Source: a virus
DNA length: 29,733 nucleotides
Strand: one strand, 5' to 3'
IMG/VR virus record: IMGVR_UViG_3300034685_000147
Span: 1 to 29,733 of that record
Shown one piece after another: positions 6,057 to 25,127 of this stretch (positions within the stretch are counted from its first letter, which is position 1; every line of letters begins with the position of its first letter). Both the position numbers and the translations under genes were made by a program. Under the pieces are notes generated by a model. It ran no database searches. It saw nothing but the letters and a program-made list of their open reading frames with translations, and was not told the DNA's origin.

Positions 6057-7019
6057 TTATATTTCAATAGCATCTTTCTTTTCTTGTAATGCATTATAAT
6101 TAATTTGTAAATAAAAATCTTGGGTAACCTGTGTTCCTTTATGATTTAATAATTTACTAACATCTTCTAAACTCATGCCATTTTGATAAAGTAAATTACT
6201 TCCAGAATGACGAAGATCATGGCAATGTAAATCTGGTTCATTAATTATATTACCAATCTTTTTTATCCATGAATTTTGAAAAGTAGATTTGCTCACTTGC
6301 TTCCATCCATCTTTAGTTTTAGTACAAAATAAATATTCACAATCAATATTGTGTTCTCTTCTAATTTGTAACCACTTTTCAATTAATTCCTTACATTTTT
6401 TAGAAAAAAATAATGTAACCAAATAGCCTTCTTTTTCTAACACGTTTTCAACCCTTCGTGTTTCTAAATTAATCTGCTCTACCTTAGTATTAGCAATTGC
6501 ATTAATACGAGCCATAGTAGATAAAGCAAATTCAAAAAATAATTCAAGCTGTATATCGTTCATCTCTGATAATTTTTTTCTTATTAATTCAACCTGTTCT
6601 TTTGTTAAAAATGTCTGTTTGATTTCATGCTTACCTTTTGCAATTTTTGGTCTCTCTAACAATTCAATCGGATTTTCTTTAATTTTTCGTTTCTTTTTAT
6701 AATAAATATACATAGAAGAAATAGAAGATAATCTTCTTGATATTCTTCGTGTTTTATTGCCTAATACTGTAGTACAAAAAGCAATAAAATCTTCAATCAT
6801 CTCTGCTGCTTCTTCAGTATCAAAATCAAACAAATACTTATTATCATAATTGTCAAGTATATAAATAAAAAATTGGTTCATATCAGAAGTATAATTATAT
6901 CTACTTGCTTCTGAGAGGTTATTTAACATTCCATTAAGATATTTACGCCATAGTTCCACATTTTTTGGATTAATTTTTGCTAATTTTTCTGGTGTAGCTA
7001 TAACTACTTTTTTAGGCAA
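6057..7019 (-). CDS. Tyrosine recombinase embedded in the tail module
   Basis: A site-specific recombinase of the phage integrase (tyrosine recombinase) family, which cuts and rejoins DNA through a 3'-phosphotyrosine. Numbering from the TTG at 7019 (320 residues), there is an N-terminal core-binding SAM-like domain (about 20-125) and a catalytic domain with Arg171 (MARINA), a beta-hairpin Lys near 207, the HDLRH box (His267, Arg270), His293 in LLNHKGTQVTQDFY, and nucleophile Tyr303. All catalytic residues are present, so the enzyme looks intact. The frame stays open to 7067, but that extension lies inside the upstream homing endonuclease gene. A GGTGG site before the TTG, which itself overlaps the endonuclease stop codon, favours the shorter form. 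It differs from the recombinase at 28436-29380. Its location between tail tube and chaperone is unusual. Confidence 0.88.
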   Translation of the reverse strand: MPKKVVIATPEKLAKINPKNVELWRKYLNGMLNNLSEASRYNYTSDMNQFFIYILDNYDNKYLFDFDTEEAAEMIEDFIAFCTTVLGNKTRRISRRLSSISSMYIYYKKKRKIKENPIELLERPKIAKGKHEIKQTFLTKEQVELIRKKLSEMNDIQLELFFEFALSTMARINAIANTKVEQINLETRRVENVLEKEGYLVTLFFSKKCKELIEKWLQIRREHNIDCEYLFCTKTKDGWKQVSKSTFQNSWIKKIGNIINEPDLHCHDLRHSGSNLLYQNGMSLEDVSKLLNHKGTQVTQDFYLQINYNALQEKKDAIEI

Positions 7020-8379
7020 CGCACTCACCACCGTATTTCTGTTGATACAAAAGTATTTTTTGAACAAATAAATTATTTTTTATATCATCAGGAAAAATAA
7101 AAATACATTTATCAATATTACCCGATTTATAAATATCCTTTATTTTCTTCTTAACATTATTATTGTATCTTTTTCCTACATAACCTTTTGGATTACGACG
7201 ATACATACCGAAATATTCTACATAAAAATAAATTTCGCCAAATTGAATTCTCCAATCAAACCTTCTTTTATCTCCCTTAATAATTTCTGAATAAGAAACT
7301 TCTTTCTTGAATTTTATATTATTATCAATTAAAAAATCAGTTATACGTTTTTCAATCAGTGATTTACATAAATTACCATTTTTGTCTATACAAATTTTAC
7401 CTGCTCCAGCATTTTGATAGTATAAATCATAATCAATATCTAACAAATCGCATATATTTTTAATATTTCCAAAATATCTCATATAGGTTGAATAACTAGC
7501 GATATTTTTGTTATTATTAAAATCGCTAACATATGGAATTCGATTTAATTTTTTAAAAAGAAAATAGAAGTCATTTAATAATTGTTCTTTACTACGAATA
7601 ATTACTGGCGAAACCGTAGGTTGCCACCCTAATTCTTTAATTATATCTGTATATGATTTTTGAAAAATCCTTTGAAAAACTTTATAAGTATAAGAACATC
7701 CAAAATTCTTTAATTCTTTAAAAGTTGGCACTCTGCCTAATTTATTTTTAATATTAATTAATATATTTATTAATTCTTCTTTGGTAACATCAAAATTTAT
7801 ATTTTCTTTATATTGTGGTAAATATTTCCGACAAATATCATTATATTTCATATTTAATTTTGTTTCTAGAACTCTACGTTGGTATCCTTTATGTTTAATA
7901 CTGTCATATTCATAAACGGTAGGAAATCTACCTAATTTTTTACCTAACTTAATTAATTCAAATAAAGAAATTTTTATTCTTTCTTTTTCTGATAATGGTT
8001 TTTCTATAAGACCAGCTTCTACACATGCATTAGTTAATCCATTAAATAACTTATTATAAACATAAATACTTGGTAACCATTTATTATCTTCAAAATCTTT
8101 CTTTTTAGGAACTTTACCTAAAACTTGATAATAATATCTTAATTTATTTATACATTCTTCTTTTGTATATCCCTGAAAATGATTTACTTTTAATCCTGCT
8201 AATTGTAATATTTTATTCCATGATTTTGTATTAAACCTATGATAATAATAAGTATCAGACGGCATATTATTTTCTTTTCCAATATCTCTTCTAGTTGGTG
8301 ATTTACCTAATTCTTTAGCTTTATCTCTTAATAATTGTAATAATTCATTATTAGAATAGTAATTATATTTTGTTTTCAT
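7012..8379 (-). CDS. Homing endonuclease with LGRxP repeats and a PD-(D/E)XK-like nuclease end
   Basis: A 455-residue mobile-intron-style endonuclease. Five copies of a helical repeat centred on LGK/RxPT (about residues 24-30, 87-93, 149-155, 214-220 and 278-284) match the 'homing endonuclease associated repeat', a DNA-reading module. The C-terminal domain looks like a Vsr/EDxHD-type nuclease: Glu343 (LIEKRITDFL), Asp375 (RRFDWRI) and Glu388 in FYVEYFG. Such enzymes nick or cut at one target and spread their own gene. It is free-standing: neither neighbour is split and no intron core is visible. The start has an AGGAGG site. Its stop overlaps the start of the tyrosine recombinase, so the two are translationally coupled and may move as a unit. 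Strong terminators lie immediately upstream of it. Confidence 0.8.
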   Translation of the reverse strand: MKTKYNYYSNNELLQLLRDKAKELGKSPTRRDIGKENNMPSDTYYYHRFNTKSWNKILQLAGLKVNHFQGYTKEECINKLRYYYQVLGKVPKKKDFEDNKWLPSIYVYNKLFNGLTNACVEAGLIEKPLSEKERIKISLFELIKLGKKLGRFPTVYEYDSIKHKGYQRRVLETKLNMKYNDICRKYLPQYKENINFDVTKEELINILINIKNKLGRVPTFKELKNFGCSYTYKVFQRIFQKSYTDIIKELGWQPTVSPVIIRSKEQLLNDFYFLFKKLNRIPYVSDFNNNKNIASYSTYMRYFGNIKNICDLLDIDYDLYYQNAGAGKICIDKNGNLCKSLIEKRITDFLIDNNIKFKKEVSYSEIIKGDKRRFDWRIQFGEIYFYVEYFGMYRRNPKGYVGKRYNNNVKKKIKDIYKSGNIDKCIFIFPDDIKNNLFVQKILLYQQKYGGECVA

Positions 8380-17164: not shown

Positions 17165-18901
17165 TTAATTAATAAATAAAAATCTAGTTATATCTGGAGC
17201 TTCATTAGTAACTAGTGAAGGCTCATACACTTTTACAATATAATATAAACCATATGCCAAAGCTGAATATCTATCTTTATCAACTTTTTTAGTAACTTGC
17301 TCTACAGTATATTTCCCAGAAGGTAATTTTTTTAAAGTTAAATTAGCTAACTCTTCTATCAATAAATCCGTTTGAATAAATGGATTTAATTCTTCAAGAG
17401 ACATTTTAAAATCAATATTAACTTCATTTTCACGAACCAATAAACGCAACCGACCGCTTTCAATTACATCCATGAAATTAACTATTATATCTGTATTCAT
17501 ACCTTGTGCATTAATTTCAAAAATCAATTCTTTGGCTAAAGGATCATCAGATTGCCTATCTGTATTCATAGTTGCCCAAGCATCATAAACTTCATTTGTT
17601 ACAGGGTCAATAGTTTCTTGTAATGCATAATCAACAACTGCACTTCCAATACCATTACTATCAATAACCACAGCAATGGCATTGTATAATACTTGAACTT
17701 TTTTCAACAATAAAGTTTGCTGAAAAAAAGAAGTGCCATTTGGAGGCACTAATATATTAACTAAATGTATTTGTTTTATTTGATTCTTTTTGTTTTTAAT
17801 CAATTTAAAAACAGTTATTACTGATTTATTATTACTTTGACTTTGTGACCTAGCTACATCAAAACTTATAATATAATCAAAATTATCTTCACCTTTATGT
17901 TCTGCTTTAGTTAAAGTTCTTAATTCCATAACTTTATTTATTTTAACCAATGCAGAATCTACAGCACCAACCCACTTAGATTCATAGTTTTGAGCAAAAT
18001 AAATGGGAGACATGGTAGGATCGTCTTTTTTAGCTAAAATTTGATTTCTTGTTTCACCACGTCCATAATGAACAGCCAATTGCCAATCGGCCCCTAAAAC
18101 CATTTTGCCTTTTAGCTCAGCCATTTCTTCAACCATTTGCAAATTTCTTAAATACTCATCGGTACCCCTAAACCCCGATGTCGTAAAGAAATTAATACTC
18201 CCATTTAATTCTTCAGGATTTATTACTGCTAATTTACCTATTGTTCTTCTGGGAACATTTACAATAGGCTCTAATACATCCTTAAATAAATTATTATCTA
18301 ATAATGCGGCTTCTTCTATATTTAACCGTCTACGTCTCATACCTTTTGAACTTTGCTGATTTGCCAATATATCAATACGTCCACCAGACGTAAAAATTAT
18401 TTCTGCACTATCCTTAGAAAAATTTGCCCTAACTATTTCATTTGCTATTAATGGATAATATCTTAATATTTCTCTATGTTTTTCTTCTAATAACTTAGAA
18501 GCATTTTCTTTAGTTTGAGCAGACATAGATATTTCAATATCAGGATAAAAAATAGCTGTATGATACATACCTAAAACTTCTAAAAAAGTTTTTCCCCAAC
18601 CCCTCGGGAACACCCCGTATGTAGATATAAACCTAGCCAAACATCTTAAAAAAACACGTTGGTCTAAGTCTAATCTAATACCTCCAGTTTGTGGTGTAAT
18701 TAAATCAAAAAATAAATCTGGGAACCAACGACACCATGAAACAAATTGAATCCATTTATTCAAATTCTTTTTAAATTTATCAACATCTTTATCAGAAACA
18801 CTTTTCACAGGATTATTAAATTCGGGATTGTAAATATCAGTTCTTGTTTCTTTTTTATCATATTTAAAATTATCTGACTGAAAATGTTTATATGACGGCA
18901 T
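17165..18901 (-). CDS. Terminase large subunit (packaging ATPase-nuclease)
   Basis: A 578-residue motor that cuts concatemeric DNA and powers packaging at the portal. The N-terminal ATPase has a Walker A variant FPRGWGKT (residues 98-105) and a Walker B-like stretch RRLNIEEAALLD (about 185-200). The C-terminal RNase H-like nuclease shows Asp in YIISFDVARS (about 345), Asp in AVVIDSNGIGSAVVDY (about 408) and a C-terminal Asp in VDKDRYSALAYGLYY. All expected acidic residues appear to be present, so it looks functional. Its ATG overlaps the end of the small subunit gene by 14 nt, indicating coupling, and it is followed by the portal gene. Confidence 0.92.
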   Translation of the reverse strand: MPSYKHFQSDNFKYDKKETRTDIYNPEFNNPVKSVSDKDVDKFKKNLNKWIQFVSWCRWFPDLFFDLITPQTGGIRLDLDQRVFLRCLARFISTYGVFPRGWGKTFLEVLGMYHTAIFYPDIEISMSAQTKENASKLLEEKHREILRYYPLIANEIVRANFSKDSAEIIFTSGGRIDILANQQSSKGMRRRRLNIEEAALLDNNLFKDVLEPIVNVPRRTIGKLAVINPEELNGSINFFTTSGFRGTDEYLRNLQMVEEMAELKGKMVLGADWQLAVHYGRGETRNQILAKKDDPTMSPIYFAQNYESKWVGAVDSALVKINKVMELRTLTKAEHKGEDNFDYIISFDVARSQSQSNNKSVITVFKLIKNKKNQIKQIHLVNILVPPNGTSFFQQTLLLKKVQVLYNAIAVVIDSNGIGSAVVDYALQETIDPVTNEVYDAWATMNTDRQSDDPLAKELIFEINAQGMNTDIIVNFMDVIESGRLRLLVRENEVNIDFKMSLEELNPFIQTDLLIEELANLTLKKLPSGKYTVEQVTKKVDKDRYSALAYGLYYIVKVYEPSLVTNEAPDITRFLFIN

Positions 18902-20747: not shown

Positions 20748-20824
20748 TGGCAGGGGAGACAGGACTTGAACCTGCAACCAAACGATTTTGGAGATCGTTG
20801 CTCTTCCAATTGAGCTACTCCCCT
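20748..20824 (-). tRNA. tRNA-Trp (CCA)
   Basis: A complete cloverleaf on the minus strand: acceptor AGGGGAG with CTCCCCT, a D-arm with TAGCTCAATTGGAAGAGC, an anticodon loop CTCCAAA with anticodon CCA (20791-20789), a T-arm GCAGGTTCAAGTCCTGT, and an encoded 3' CCA. It reads UGG. It follows the large structured RNA by about 20 nt and is probably co-transcribed with it. Confidence 0.95.
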
Positions 20825-20844
20825 ATATATAAAATACTTCTTTT

Positions 20845-21476
20845 ATCGAGAGGGGATATGTACCCCTCCCATAAGCCATAGATTTTAGGATAAAGCAGAT
20901 GTCCGTCACTTATTTAAGCAGAGCACTTTTTTAATTTATCTATGCGTAGAAAGACTCTGCGTGAAAACTACGCTTTAATTGTATAGGATAATAACTCCTA
21001 GCGTTATTATCCGTGTTTGTATTTTATGTGCCCTCTATTGGCTAGGCACTTTTGGTGCACACGGCATGAAGCCGACCTTCGCCAATAGAGGACCCAACAA
21101 AAGCCGCCCTATATGTCATCGTCTGTGTCGTGGATTCACAGCACTAATATAGTGGCGGCCAACCTGTATGGGTTAATTCTCAAATTTGCCCTCCCCCGGT
21201 CGGGTTAACCCCGGCCCCCGAACGGCTATGCCGCTACTCAAAAATGAGGTTCATCGGGCTTGCTCAGGCCCCGGCACAAGGTTCCCCCGGCTTGCGCCCT
21301 ACGTCCTATCTTGCGATGTGCCTCACGGCTTGGTGAGGGTTTCGGATAGTAGTGGCGTAAGCCGCTGGGCCGTTCTCTGGCCCCTTGTGTTTGTCCGGCG
21401 CATGCCTGATATTGGAGCTGCGGGGCTTTCGCCAGCGGTTGCTAAGGGCAACCTACCGCAGCCTGGAAGGTATCTG
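20845..21476 (-). ncRNA. Large ornate noncoding RNA (GOLLD/ROOL-like candidate)
   Basis: About 630 nt of GC-rich sequence in an AT-rich genome, with no supportable gene, folds into many helices. Examples: a 10-bp hairpin 20986-20995/21003-21012; a three-way junction closed by an 11-bp stem 21032-21042/21081-21091 with two inner hairpins (GCAC/GTGC and CGGC/GCCG); a stem joining GCCGCC-CTATAT (from 21103) to ATATAG-GGCGGC (to about 21159); and another three-way junction at about 21418-21461, CTGCGG/CCGCAG enclosing GGTTGC/GCAACC and, on the minus strand, GGC-GAAA-GCC with a GNRA loop. A 6-bp hairpin 20850-20868 may be the 3' end. The GNRA loop, the tRNA strand and the tRNA-like elements all place it on the minus strand. 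Phage location, size and flanking tRNAs match the GOLLD and ROOL giant RNA classes. I cannot confirm either family without a covariance search. Ends are approximate. Confidence 0.7.
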
Positions 21477-21602
21477 TTCGGCGGTCAGGATTTGAACCTG
21501 ATTGCTATTTTTTCTCGATAATAGCGCCTACGTTACCCGGTTACTCGCCTAATGGCCTCTCCTGTCACGTCAAGGTACGTGTTCCCACCACGCCGCCACC
21601 AA
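21477..21602 (-). ncRNA. tRNA-like element 2
   Basis: A 126-nt unit with a perfect T-arm (TCAGG-TTCAAAT-CCTGA, 21485-21501) and a 7-bp acceptor (5' TTGGTGG at 21602-21596 with CCGCCGA at 21484-21478, two G-U pairs). A possible D-arm (CGTG/CACG) and a 6-bp variable-arm-like stem (GCTATT/AATAGC) are present. The middle does not form a normal anticodon arm and the unit is longer than any ordinary tRNA. The 3' end continues as ACAG rather than ACCA. It may be a degenerate tRNA, a tRNA-like domain of the large RNA, or a separate small RNA. Confidence 0.55.
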
Positions 21603-21673
21603 TTGTGCCCCGCATTTCCTACCTCAGCCTGCTAAGTAGGCACTTAGCGCTTCGGATTTGCAGGGCTATGTTC

Positions 21674-21792
21674 GCATAGGGGCAGGATTCGAACCTGCAC
21701 GGCATAGGTCATCCATGGCAAGCCCATTCCTATGCCTTAAGCTGGCCTCATTAAGCCAGTGCGTGATAGCGTCTTATTCCGCCACCCTATGC
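21674..21792 (-). ncRNA. tRNA-like element 1
   Basis: A 119-nt unit that starts like a tRNA-Leu (GTGGCGGAATAAGACGC), with an 8-bp acceptor GCATAGGG/CCCTATGC (21792-21785 with 21681-21674) and a perfect T-arm GCAGG-TTCGAAT-CCTGC (21698-21682). An arm in the anticodon position is CTGGC-8 nt-GCCAG (21759-21742), with one extra loop base. A long variable-arm-like stem GGCATAGG/CCTATGCC occupies 21701-21736. It is followed by GAACA instead of CCA. No ordinary amino acid identity can be assigned. Confidence 0.6.
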
Positions 21793-21793
21793 A

Positions 21794-21904
21794 TTACAAT
21801 ATATATACATATTTCAAGAATTCTTCATTTGACAAGTTAAGCACTTCTTTAAACATATCGCCAGCATGAATTACCTCTTCTAAGTCATTTGAGTATAAAT
21901 CCAT
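21794..21904 (-). CDS. Small hypothetical protein (36 aa)
   Basis: An ATG at 21904 with a GGAGTGG site 5 nt upstream opens a 36-residue, acidic, helical ORF (MDLYSNDLEEVIHAG..., ending KYVYIL) that stops 1 nt before tRNA-like element 1. No domain is recognisable. The good ribosome binding site, the AT-rich composition like the other genes (unlike the neighbouring RNA) and the fit between the NTPase gene and the RNA cluster support it being real. Its mRNA would continue into the tRNA-like element. Confidence 0.5.
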   Translation of the reverse strand: MDLYSNDLEEVIHAGDMFKEVLNLSNEEFLKYVYIL

Positions 21905-23893: not shown

Positions 23894-25108
23894 TTATGCC
23901 ACTTCATTTATTTTATATTTATCAATTACATTTTTCATATTTTTATTATGTATTAACCCATATTTAACTAACCATTCCTTTAATATTTTTTCTATATTAT
24001 TAAATTCCCAATAGGGAATTCGTAATAATGATATATTATTATCTTTACAATATTGATTTTTTATATTATCATTTTGTTGTTGTTGTCTTAACTTTTGTAA
24101 CATATCTTTTTTATTACCATATCTATACGGTTCAAAATGCCCTTCTCCATCATATTCAATTAAAAATAAAAGATTTTGGTTTCTATCATTAATTCCAAAA
24201 TCAAATGGAAGTGGTCTTATGTTTTTACATTCATCAAATTTCACTTGCATTTCATAATTAATATTAAATTTATTAAGAAACTCTTTAATTCTATTTTCTC
24301 CACTTGAAACAGAACAAAATGGACAACGAACACCAGATAAAAATGCATTGGGTTCTATATTCCAACTATTATTGCATTCATTATGTAATATTTGTATTTT
24401 AGTATGAGTATTAATATATTTTCCTAAAACTGTATATTCATCACCAACTAATTTATATACTTCATTTTCAAATTCTTTTTGTGTTTTAACATATAAATTA
24501 CGCTTATATTCACTTAGACATTCATTACATATATATTTGCTATTTATTACAGACATTAATGTAGCTTCTTGAATTCCTAAATTTTTATGCTTACTGCATA
24601 TATACTTCAATTTACTTCTAGCATTTCTATATTTTTTAGAAATTAATATATATCCTTTTTCTTCAAATATTTGCCTAACTTCTTCAATTGTATATTTTTT
24701 ATTTCCCATACATACAGGGCAATGTTGATTTAAATATATCATATTATTGAATTTCATATAAAATTTATGCCCTTTATCACATTCAAATAATAATTTATAT
24801 TGATTATTTATTTTTTCCATTTTTGTAGATATTAATTTATATCCTTTGCGATTATACATAAGCCATAATTTTATATTTTCAATATAAAATTTATTTTTTG
24901 ATGTAAAACGCAACAATTTAGAATTTGATTTATGATATTTTTTTATATTATTTAAAGATATATAATATTGATATCCATCTATATCTTTAATATGTAATGG
25001 TATATGATTATTAATATACTCTTTATCAATTAACTTAAAATTATACCAATTCTGACATTCGATTTCTATATATGATTTGACTTCTTCATATGTTAATTTT
25101 TTTGTCAT
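23894..25108 (-). CDS. Free-standing homing endonuclease with zinc motifs and PD-(D/E)XK-like nuclease
   Basis: A protein of about 404 residues with three zinc-type Cys clusters: C112...CPVC (132-135), CSKH...CNEC (173-199) and CNNSW...CPFC (247-267). The C-terminal Vsr/EDxHD-like nuclease shows Glu273 (SGENRIKEFL), Asp305 (PLPFDFGI), Glu320 and Asp322 (IEYDGEGHF), and the trailing ISLLRIPYW strand (numbered from the upstream TTG). Homing endonucleases of this kind are free-standing in phage genomes and spread by cutting gene-less relatives. The frame opens at a TTG (25114), but ATG at 25108 sits after AGGTGAT and is preferred. It separates the PhoH-like gene from the metallophosphoesterase, neither of which is interrupted. 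Confidence 0.75.
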   Translation of the reverse strand: MTKKLTYEEVKSYIEIECQNWYNFKLIDKEYINNHIPLHIKDIDGYQYYISLNNIKKYHKSNSKLLRFTSKNKFYIENIKLWLMYNRKGYKLISTKMEKINNQYKLLFECDKGHKFYMKFNNMIYLNQHCPVCMGNKKYTIEEVRQIFEEKGYILISKKYRNARSKLKYICSKHKNLGIQEATLMSVINSKYICNECLSEYKRNLYVKTQKEFENEVYKLVGDEYTVLGKYINTHTKIQILHNECNNSWNIEPNAFLSGVRCPFCSVSSGENRIKEFLNKFNINYEMQVKFDECKNIRPLPFDFGINDRNQNLLFLIEYDGEGHFEPYRYGNKKDMLQKLRQQQQNDNIKNQYCKDNNISLLRIPYWEFNNIEKILKEWLVKYGLIHNKNMKNVIDKYKINEVA

Positions 25109-25127
25109 AAACAATAATCACCTAAAA

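Follow-up and report, generated by a model that had tools for sequence, protein, structure and literature searches.

The window analysed here is an IMG/VR virus record of 29,733 bases. Its GC content is 0.45-0.57 over 20751-21750 against about 0.27 elsewhere in the record, in agreement with a sequence-only reading that had described a GC-rich stretch of about 1 kb in a low-GC genome. The stretch at 20748-21792, called the island below, is about 1 kb long, non-coding and strongly folding on the minus strand. All of its elements lie on this strand, co-directional with the late genes (Table 1), and the terminase gene follows 2-3 kb downstream. The same reading had likewise placed the stretch upstream of the late genes. 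The terminase is 53% identical, over the aligned pieces, to that of Psychrobacillus phage Perkons and 45% identical to that of Bacillus phage SPR, and the portal gene of the window matches a phage portal family. Judged by the sequences of its late genes, the window phage is SPbeta-like.

The sole long open reading frame in the island is on the plus strand, at 21186-21521. A protein product was considered and rejected, as the island copy of the relative L002 has indels and a gap of ~180 nt there and the reading frame is gone. The absence of convincing genes, noted before, therefore holds. Elsewhere in the window, at 7012-8379 and 23894-25114, two genes resemble those of homing endonucleases (HNH-associated repeats; CapR/DUF4379 zinc-finger protein); the second is separated from the island by 2 kb. 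Anti-defence loci can be amplified by homing enzymes next to tRNAs (PMC13096335).

Table 1. Features of the island and its surroundings, in the direction of the minus strand (positions in the window).
Feature	Position	Strand	Evidence and remarks
Small ORF, 36 aa (MDLYSNDLEEV...YVYIL)	21794-21904	-	Stop codon 1 nt before the island; kept in L002
tRNA-like unit A	21674-21792	-	Rfam tRNA 32.4 bits; fold z -3.9; T-arm/acceptor scan
DUF3800-VIII RNA (RF03075)	21604-21669	-	44.7 bits, gathering cutoff 40.2; fold z -3.4; aligned with 21 homologues
tRNA-like unit B	21478-21602	-	Sequence; T-arm/acceptor scan
G+C-rich hairpin domain with GAAA tetraloop	21413-21473	-	Missing in L002
Core RNA, DUF3800-VII-like frame	21262-21410	-	82.6% identical to L002 1053-1211; fold z -3.8
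G+C-rich structured segment, ~170-180 nt	21095-21261	-	Missing in L002
Three-way-junction RNA, 11-bp closing helix	21027-21092	-	90% over 61 nt in L002
Two hairpins	20910-21015	-	tRNA-Glu(UUC) in the same place in L002
Conserved 3' segment with terminal hairpin	20841-20907	-	81% identical to L002 1365-1429
tRNA-Trp (CCA anticodon)	20748-20824	-	tRNA calling and Rfam; not in L002
Terminase large subunit, SPbeta YonF type	17165-18901	-	Downstream of the island, co-directional

Folding of the minus strand of 20830-21800 gave -364 kcal/mol (z -6.1 versus 20 dinucleotide shuffles), while the plus strand folded more weakly (z -3.8). In the whole-cluster ensemble, the helices that close the DUF3800-VIII hairpin and the three-way junction have pairing probabilities of 0.9-1.0, the acceptor of tRNA-like unit A about 0.69, and that of unit B only about 0.21. 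The GNRA loop of the sequence-only reading corresponds to a GAAA at about 21415-21425, though this loop is missing in L002. Together, the rise in GC and a minus-strand fold far beyond shuffles confirm a structured GC-rich island.

One module could be assigned to a known family. By the curated cutoff and a covariation-backed hairpin, the RNA located between the two tRNA-like units is a DUF3800-VIII member. In an alignment of 22 sequences, 10 of the 19 pairs of the family are supported by compensatory changes, and the window copy retains the invariant positions of this alignment. Unit A ends 4 nt before the RNA, and unit B begins a few nt after it.

The tRNA-Trp at the 3' end of the island was found where it had been proposed. 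Unit A has a 7-bp acceptor (GCAUAGG/CCUAUGC), a D-arm and a canonical T-arm, and reached a score of 32.4 bits with RF00005, the tRNA model of Rfam, in a restricted search (cutoff 29). It shares acceptor, D-arm, T-arm and a long variable arm with class II tRNAs, but differs from them by the 8-nt loop of its anticodon-like arm, by an extra linker, and by the length of the variable arm (~36 nt, GGCAUAGG...CCUAUGCC). With this loop and the long insertions, unit A departs from the cloverleaf with a 7-nt anticodon loop that characterizes tRNAs. Unit B was recognized by its GGCGG/CCGCC acceptor and canonical T-arm alone. Where the anticodon region would be, it carries a large, unrelated and hypervariable body of ~95 nt. 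It has no covariance-model match, and folded alone it is no better than shuffles. ARAGORN reports neither unit.

Both units are ~120 nt long, with T-arm-to-acceptor spacings of 93 and 101 nt in the window. We scanned 1.27 Mb of related phage DNA on both strands for a T-arm combined with a 7-bp acceptor. The scan returned ordinary tRNAs, with spacings of 47-67 nt; the sole long-spaced exceptions were the two units of the L002 island copy (97 and 110 nt). The lack of any false match in this amount of DNA argues that units A and B are genuine tRNA-like elements, and the two units of the sequence-only reading are more than chance. The 3' strands of the acceptor and of the variable arm of unit A (21674-21792) are near copies of each other and share one C-to-T change in L002, possibly reflecting alternative pairing or conversion.

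The core RNA resembles a second DUF3800-associated family. It shares with DUF3800-VII (RF02967) the 5' and 3' frame sequences (CAGGCAUGCGCCGGA..AACACAAGG / GGGAACCUUGUGCCGGG) and the order of helix, hairpin 1 and hairpin 2; it differs by an extension of ~80 nt in the second hairpin, by a score below cutoff in L002 (23.8 bits, E 0.044, cutoff 36.2), and by the negative outcome with a covariance model built from seven chromosomal DUF3800-VII members, which misses the core (best match 8.9 bits, elsewhere). The window core is absent from the Rfam matches to RF02967. A profile of two anchors, built from these seven members, nevertheless scored 31.8 bits in the window core and 25.9 bits in the L002 core. 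None of 1000 shuffles reached the respective score (maxima 21.2 for the window and 23.6 for L002), and the best score in 3.5 Mb of other DNA was 19.9. The simplest reading of these sequences would be a conserved DUF3800-VII frame with a second hairpin grown by ~80 nt. We stop short of counting the core among the members of this family. DUF3800-VII itself is present in 8 of 398 Bacillota genomes, and the proteins flanking it in the three loci L166, L171 and L172 are PF12686. A candidate for a third core homologue, in L165, was not confirmed, and strict as well as permissive searches with the other Rfam families, besides the tRNA and DUF3800 matches, returned nothing for the island.

The comparison with the near-identical phage L002 was informative; its terminase protein is 100% identical to that of the window. 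The island copy in this relative is far shorter, with no more than four short blocks that can be aligned. Its unit A has 91% identity and a more regular D-arm, and unit B retains its ends around a different interior. The copy lacks the DUF3800-VIII RNA as well as the GAAA hairpin and the segment of ~180 nt, a tRNA-Glu takes the place of the two hairpins, and the tRNA-Trp and the two following ORFs are gone. Module turnover is thus rapid beside an identical terminase. The three-way-junction RNA is retained, with fold z-scores of -4.0 in the window and -2.2 in L002. From the remodelled L002 copy we conclude that the island is a mosaic and not one conserved RNA of ~630 nt. The single ornate RNA of this length in the sequence-only reading does not survive, as modules were lost, gained and swapped between phages with identical terminase. 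Covariation among homologues, on which that reading would have been judged, is present for the DUF3800-VIII family; the rest of the island has one close homologue and weak covariation, with few compensatory changes (in the two available copies, one compensatory pair versus nine broken or gapped pairs for the core, and one versus two for the three-way junction).

Further relatives were sought in several ways. Nucleotide searches of phage, plasmid and E. coli collections returned just tRNA matches and one chance piece. When IMG/VR was scanned for exact patterns taken from the core and from the tRNA-like units, L002 alone emerged, all other matches being coding or due to chance, and a search with a neighbouring gene led to L002 again and to no further relative. 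In the SPbeta-like phages Perkons, SPR and E3, no tRNA was found in the stretches read, and there was no blast match to the island. Structured RNAs beside tRNAs do recur in this phage group: two skipping-rope RNAs and four tRNAs are located upstream of the terminase in L075 (6774-8431), and a drum RNA and a tRNA-Tyr in L051 (3838-4266). L002 has, at 615-680, an insertion of ~34 nt relative to the window. It contains a hairpin, AGCCCCTGGCTTTAGTCACGGGGAGTGTC, which in our view recalls the right ends of IS200/IS605 elements.

The high turnover and the replacement of tRNAs between window and L002, together with the tRNAs and the drum and skipping-rope RNAs that precede the terminase in related phages, could also be explained if the island were a tRNA island swollen by hitch-hiking structured elements, essentially debris of recombination at a tRNA hotspot, with function limited to the tRNAs. 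We regard this as unlikely, since core, three-way junction and 3' segment stay 81-90% identical and keep most of their pairs despite the turnover, and since GC remains high within a genome of 27% GC.

The mosaic structure also bears on the proposal that the island is a member or relative of the GOLLD and ROOL classes. As such it would assemble, late in infection, into a particle made of RNA alone. Phage GOLLD and ROOL RNAs are found near tRNA islands (PMC12286853), and size, strong folding and a neighbourhood of tRNA genes upstream of late genes would fit a single large ornate RNA of this type. However, the island did not match the covariance model of GOLLD (RF02032) or that of ROOL (RF03087), in both cases at E<=10, one of the ROOL runs having no positive control; the L002 copy is much shortened and remodelled; and two of the modules map to or resemble separate small RNA families. 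The likeness lies in the large size of the non-coding region and in the neighbouring phage tRNA genes; the island is modular instead of having one conserved fold, and matches neither class in sequence or structure. A giant RNA is therefore disfavoured, and we consider it very improbable. What stands of the earlier proposal is the structured RNA island with tRNA-like elements next to a tRNA, and what falls is its kinship, as one RNA, with GOLLD or ROOL. A very large RNA in the neighbourhood of tRNA genes is not necessarily one of the two.

The genomic context of DUF3800-VIII was then compared between chromosomes and phages. Matches to the family above cutoff come from 6 of 300 Bacilli genomes and from 11 of 398 genomes of Bacillota. 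A DUF3800 coding sequence, broken or fragmentary in some cases, lies within about 70 nt of the RNA in 14 of the 17 above-cutoff Bacillota loci, the exceptions being L141, L158 and L159. PDC-M04A, a candidate-defence model, is matched by two of the chromosomal proteins that adjoin the RNA. The viral set comprises the window and four records from an exact pattern scan, one of which (L147) scores below cutoff. No DUF3800 gene (PF12686) was detected in these five records, nor in L002; the window record is probably an incomplete fragment, and its phage could carry the gene elsewhere. The DUF3800-class RNAs of the window are orphans within the phage record. For the difference between gene-linked chromosomal and orphan viral copies, the Fisher exact p is 0.002, a value to be read with caution, as the two sets were gathered in different ways.

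Some loci deserve mention for their organization. In L159, which is unrelated to the window, a tRNA-Asn ends 1 nt before DUF3800-VIII, so that two loci are known with tight tRNA abutment, compared with a gap of about 190 nt in L143. The L159 stretch at 1290-1760 consists of a long-stem structured RNA (GGGGAAAACCAG...CUGGUUUUCCCC), the tRNA-Asn, DUF3800-VIII and then more structure, with the same order of tRNA unit and DUF3800-VIII as in the window, and is likely a mobile-element RNA array. In L141 (1330-1595), DUF3800-VIII is located within a possible tRNA-like unit and adjoins a serine-recombinase-like fragment; an upstream GGUGGUUG pairs with CAACCACC beyond the T-arm (z -4.0). L165 (8798-9400) is a GC-rich prophage in which a tRNA-like unit of ~130 nt with a 9-bp acceptor is followed by DUF3800-VIII, here enlarged by an additional arm; TerL lies downstream. 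One viral contig (L149, 1335-1399, and L145) has two copies that resemble DUF3800-VIII, one of them partial, at a distance of about 2 kb from each other, and no DUF3800.

The orphan copies in L158, L146, L165 and the window are found just upstream of TerS (in L158 directly upstream of this terminase small subunit gene), an HNH gene or TerL. Such positions would suit a set of cis-acting leader or packaging-region RNAs for late-gene expression or DNA packaging, with the site upstream of the terminase being incidental. This explanation appears distinctly unlikely, because chromosomal DUF3800-VIII adjoins DUF3800 genes far from any terminase, and because the close relative L002 lacks the RNA yet retains its packaging genes.

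We know of no assigned function for the DUF3800 RNA families. DUF3800 proteins form an RNase H-fold family of putative nucleases linked to non-coding RNAs and are accessory in some CRISPR loci (PMC10910872, PMC12669027). The fold and the RNA partners (PMC10910872), together with the conserved nucleotides in the window copy of DUF3800-VIII, would be in line with guides or co-factors, of the sort that OMEGA nucleases with an RNase H fold employ, for a DUF3800 protein that comes from the host or from another element. No guide-like segment or target was identified in these RNAs, and DUF3800 as an RNA-guided enzyme is itself hypothetical, so that we hold this role to be improbable.

Instead, we tentatively favour, as a possibility short of being probable, that the island is a mosaic array from which DUF3800-type orphan RNAs are released at tRNA-like units to act as decoys. 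The array, in the order tRNA-like A, DUF3800-VIII RNA, tRNA-like B, DUF3800-VII-like RNA, three-way-junction RNA and tRNA-Trp, would be transcribed, probably together with the late genes. Cleavage by host RNase P and RNase Z at the tRNA and the tRNA-like units on either side would free the DUF3800-type RNAs with defined ends. The freed RNAs might then bind in trans to DUF3800 RNase H-fold proteins of the host or of a rival element and hold them inactive, by an RNA mimicry like that of pseudo-ToxI against ToxIN. The oversized tRNA-like units may be processing marks, or decoys for tRNA-targeting defences; units of this kind in phages might in general work as processing punctuation or bait. In favour of the model we count the DUF3800-VIII assignment, the anchor score of the core, the contrast between chromosomal and viral contexts, the link of DUF3800 to nucleases and candidate defence, the close abutment of tRNA units and the rapid module turnover; against it count the negative covariance model and sub-cutoff Rfam score for the core, the weak covariation between the two island copies and the small number of tightly abutting loci. 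We infer transcription, processing, binding and a decoy or protective role by analogy, and the decoy model has as its putative premise that DUF3800 and its RNA may form a defence or toxin-antitoxin pair. In a more general form, phages would have mosaic anti-defence islands in which orphan DUF3800-class RNAs, freed by remodelled tRNA-like punctuation, counteract DUF3800 nucleases, a generalization that we consider doubtful. The occurrence of orphan copies in phages versus gene-linked copies in chromosomes makes a directly testable case for a defence or toxin-antitoxin pair of which the phage carries the RNA half.

That a phage could carry the RNA half of DUF3800 modules as an antidote is suggested by analogy with pseudo-ToxI, AbiF RNA and phage tRNA. 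The abiF motif reportedly came from the same structured-RNA survey that probably named the DUF3800 motifs. It turned out to be an antitoxin RNA (AbiF, RCd22; PMC12373285). Pseudo-ToxI of phage PhiTE neutralizes ToxIN through RNA mimicry (PMC3475682), and a phage tRNA-Tyr overcomes Septu, a tRNA-cutting defence (PMC13096335). The window copy of DUF3800-VIII has the same 66-nt hairpin with the conserved nucleotides as the family, above cutoff, whereas the family is usually found at the end of a DUF3800 gene and the window copy between tRNA-like units, in a record without DUF3800. In being an orphan it resembles pseudo-ToxI, a phage RNA without its protein partner that is a proven neutralizer, while the window RNA is known from sequence. 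RCd22, in contrast, adjoins its protein partner and was shown to neutralize it. For both pseudo-ToxI and RCd22, the RNA and protein families differ from those of DUF3800.
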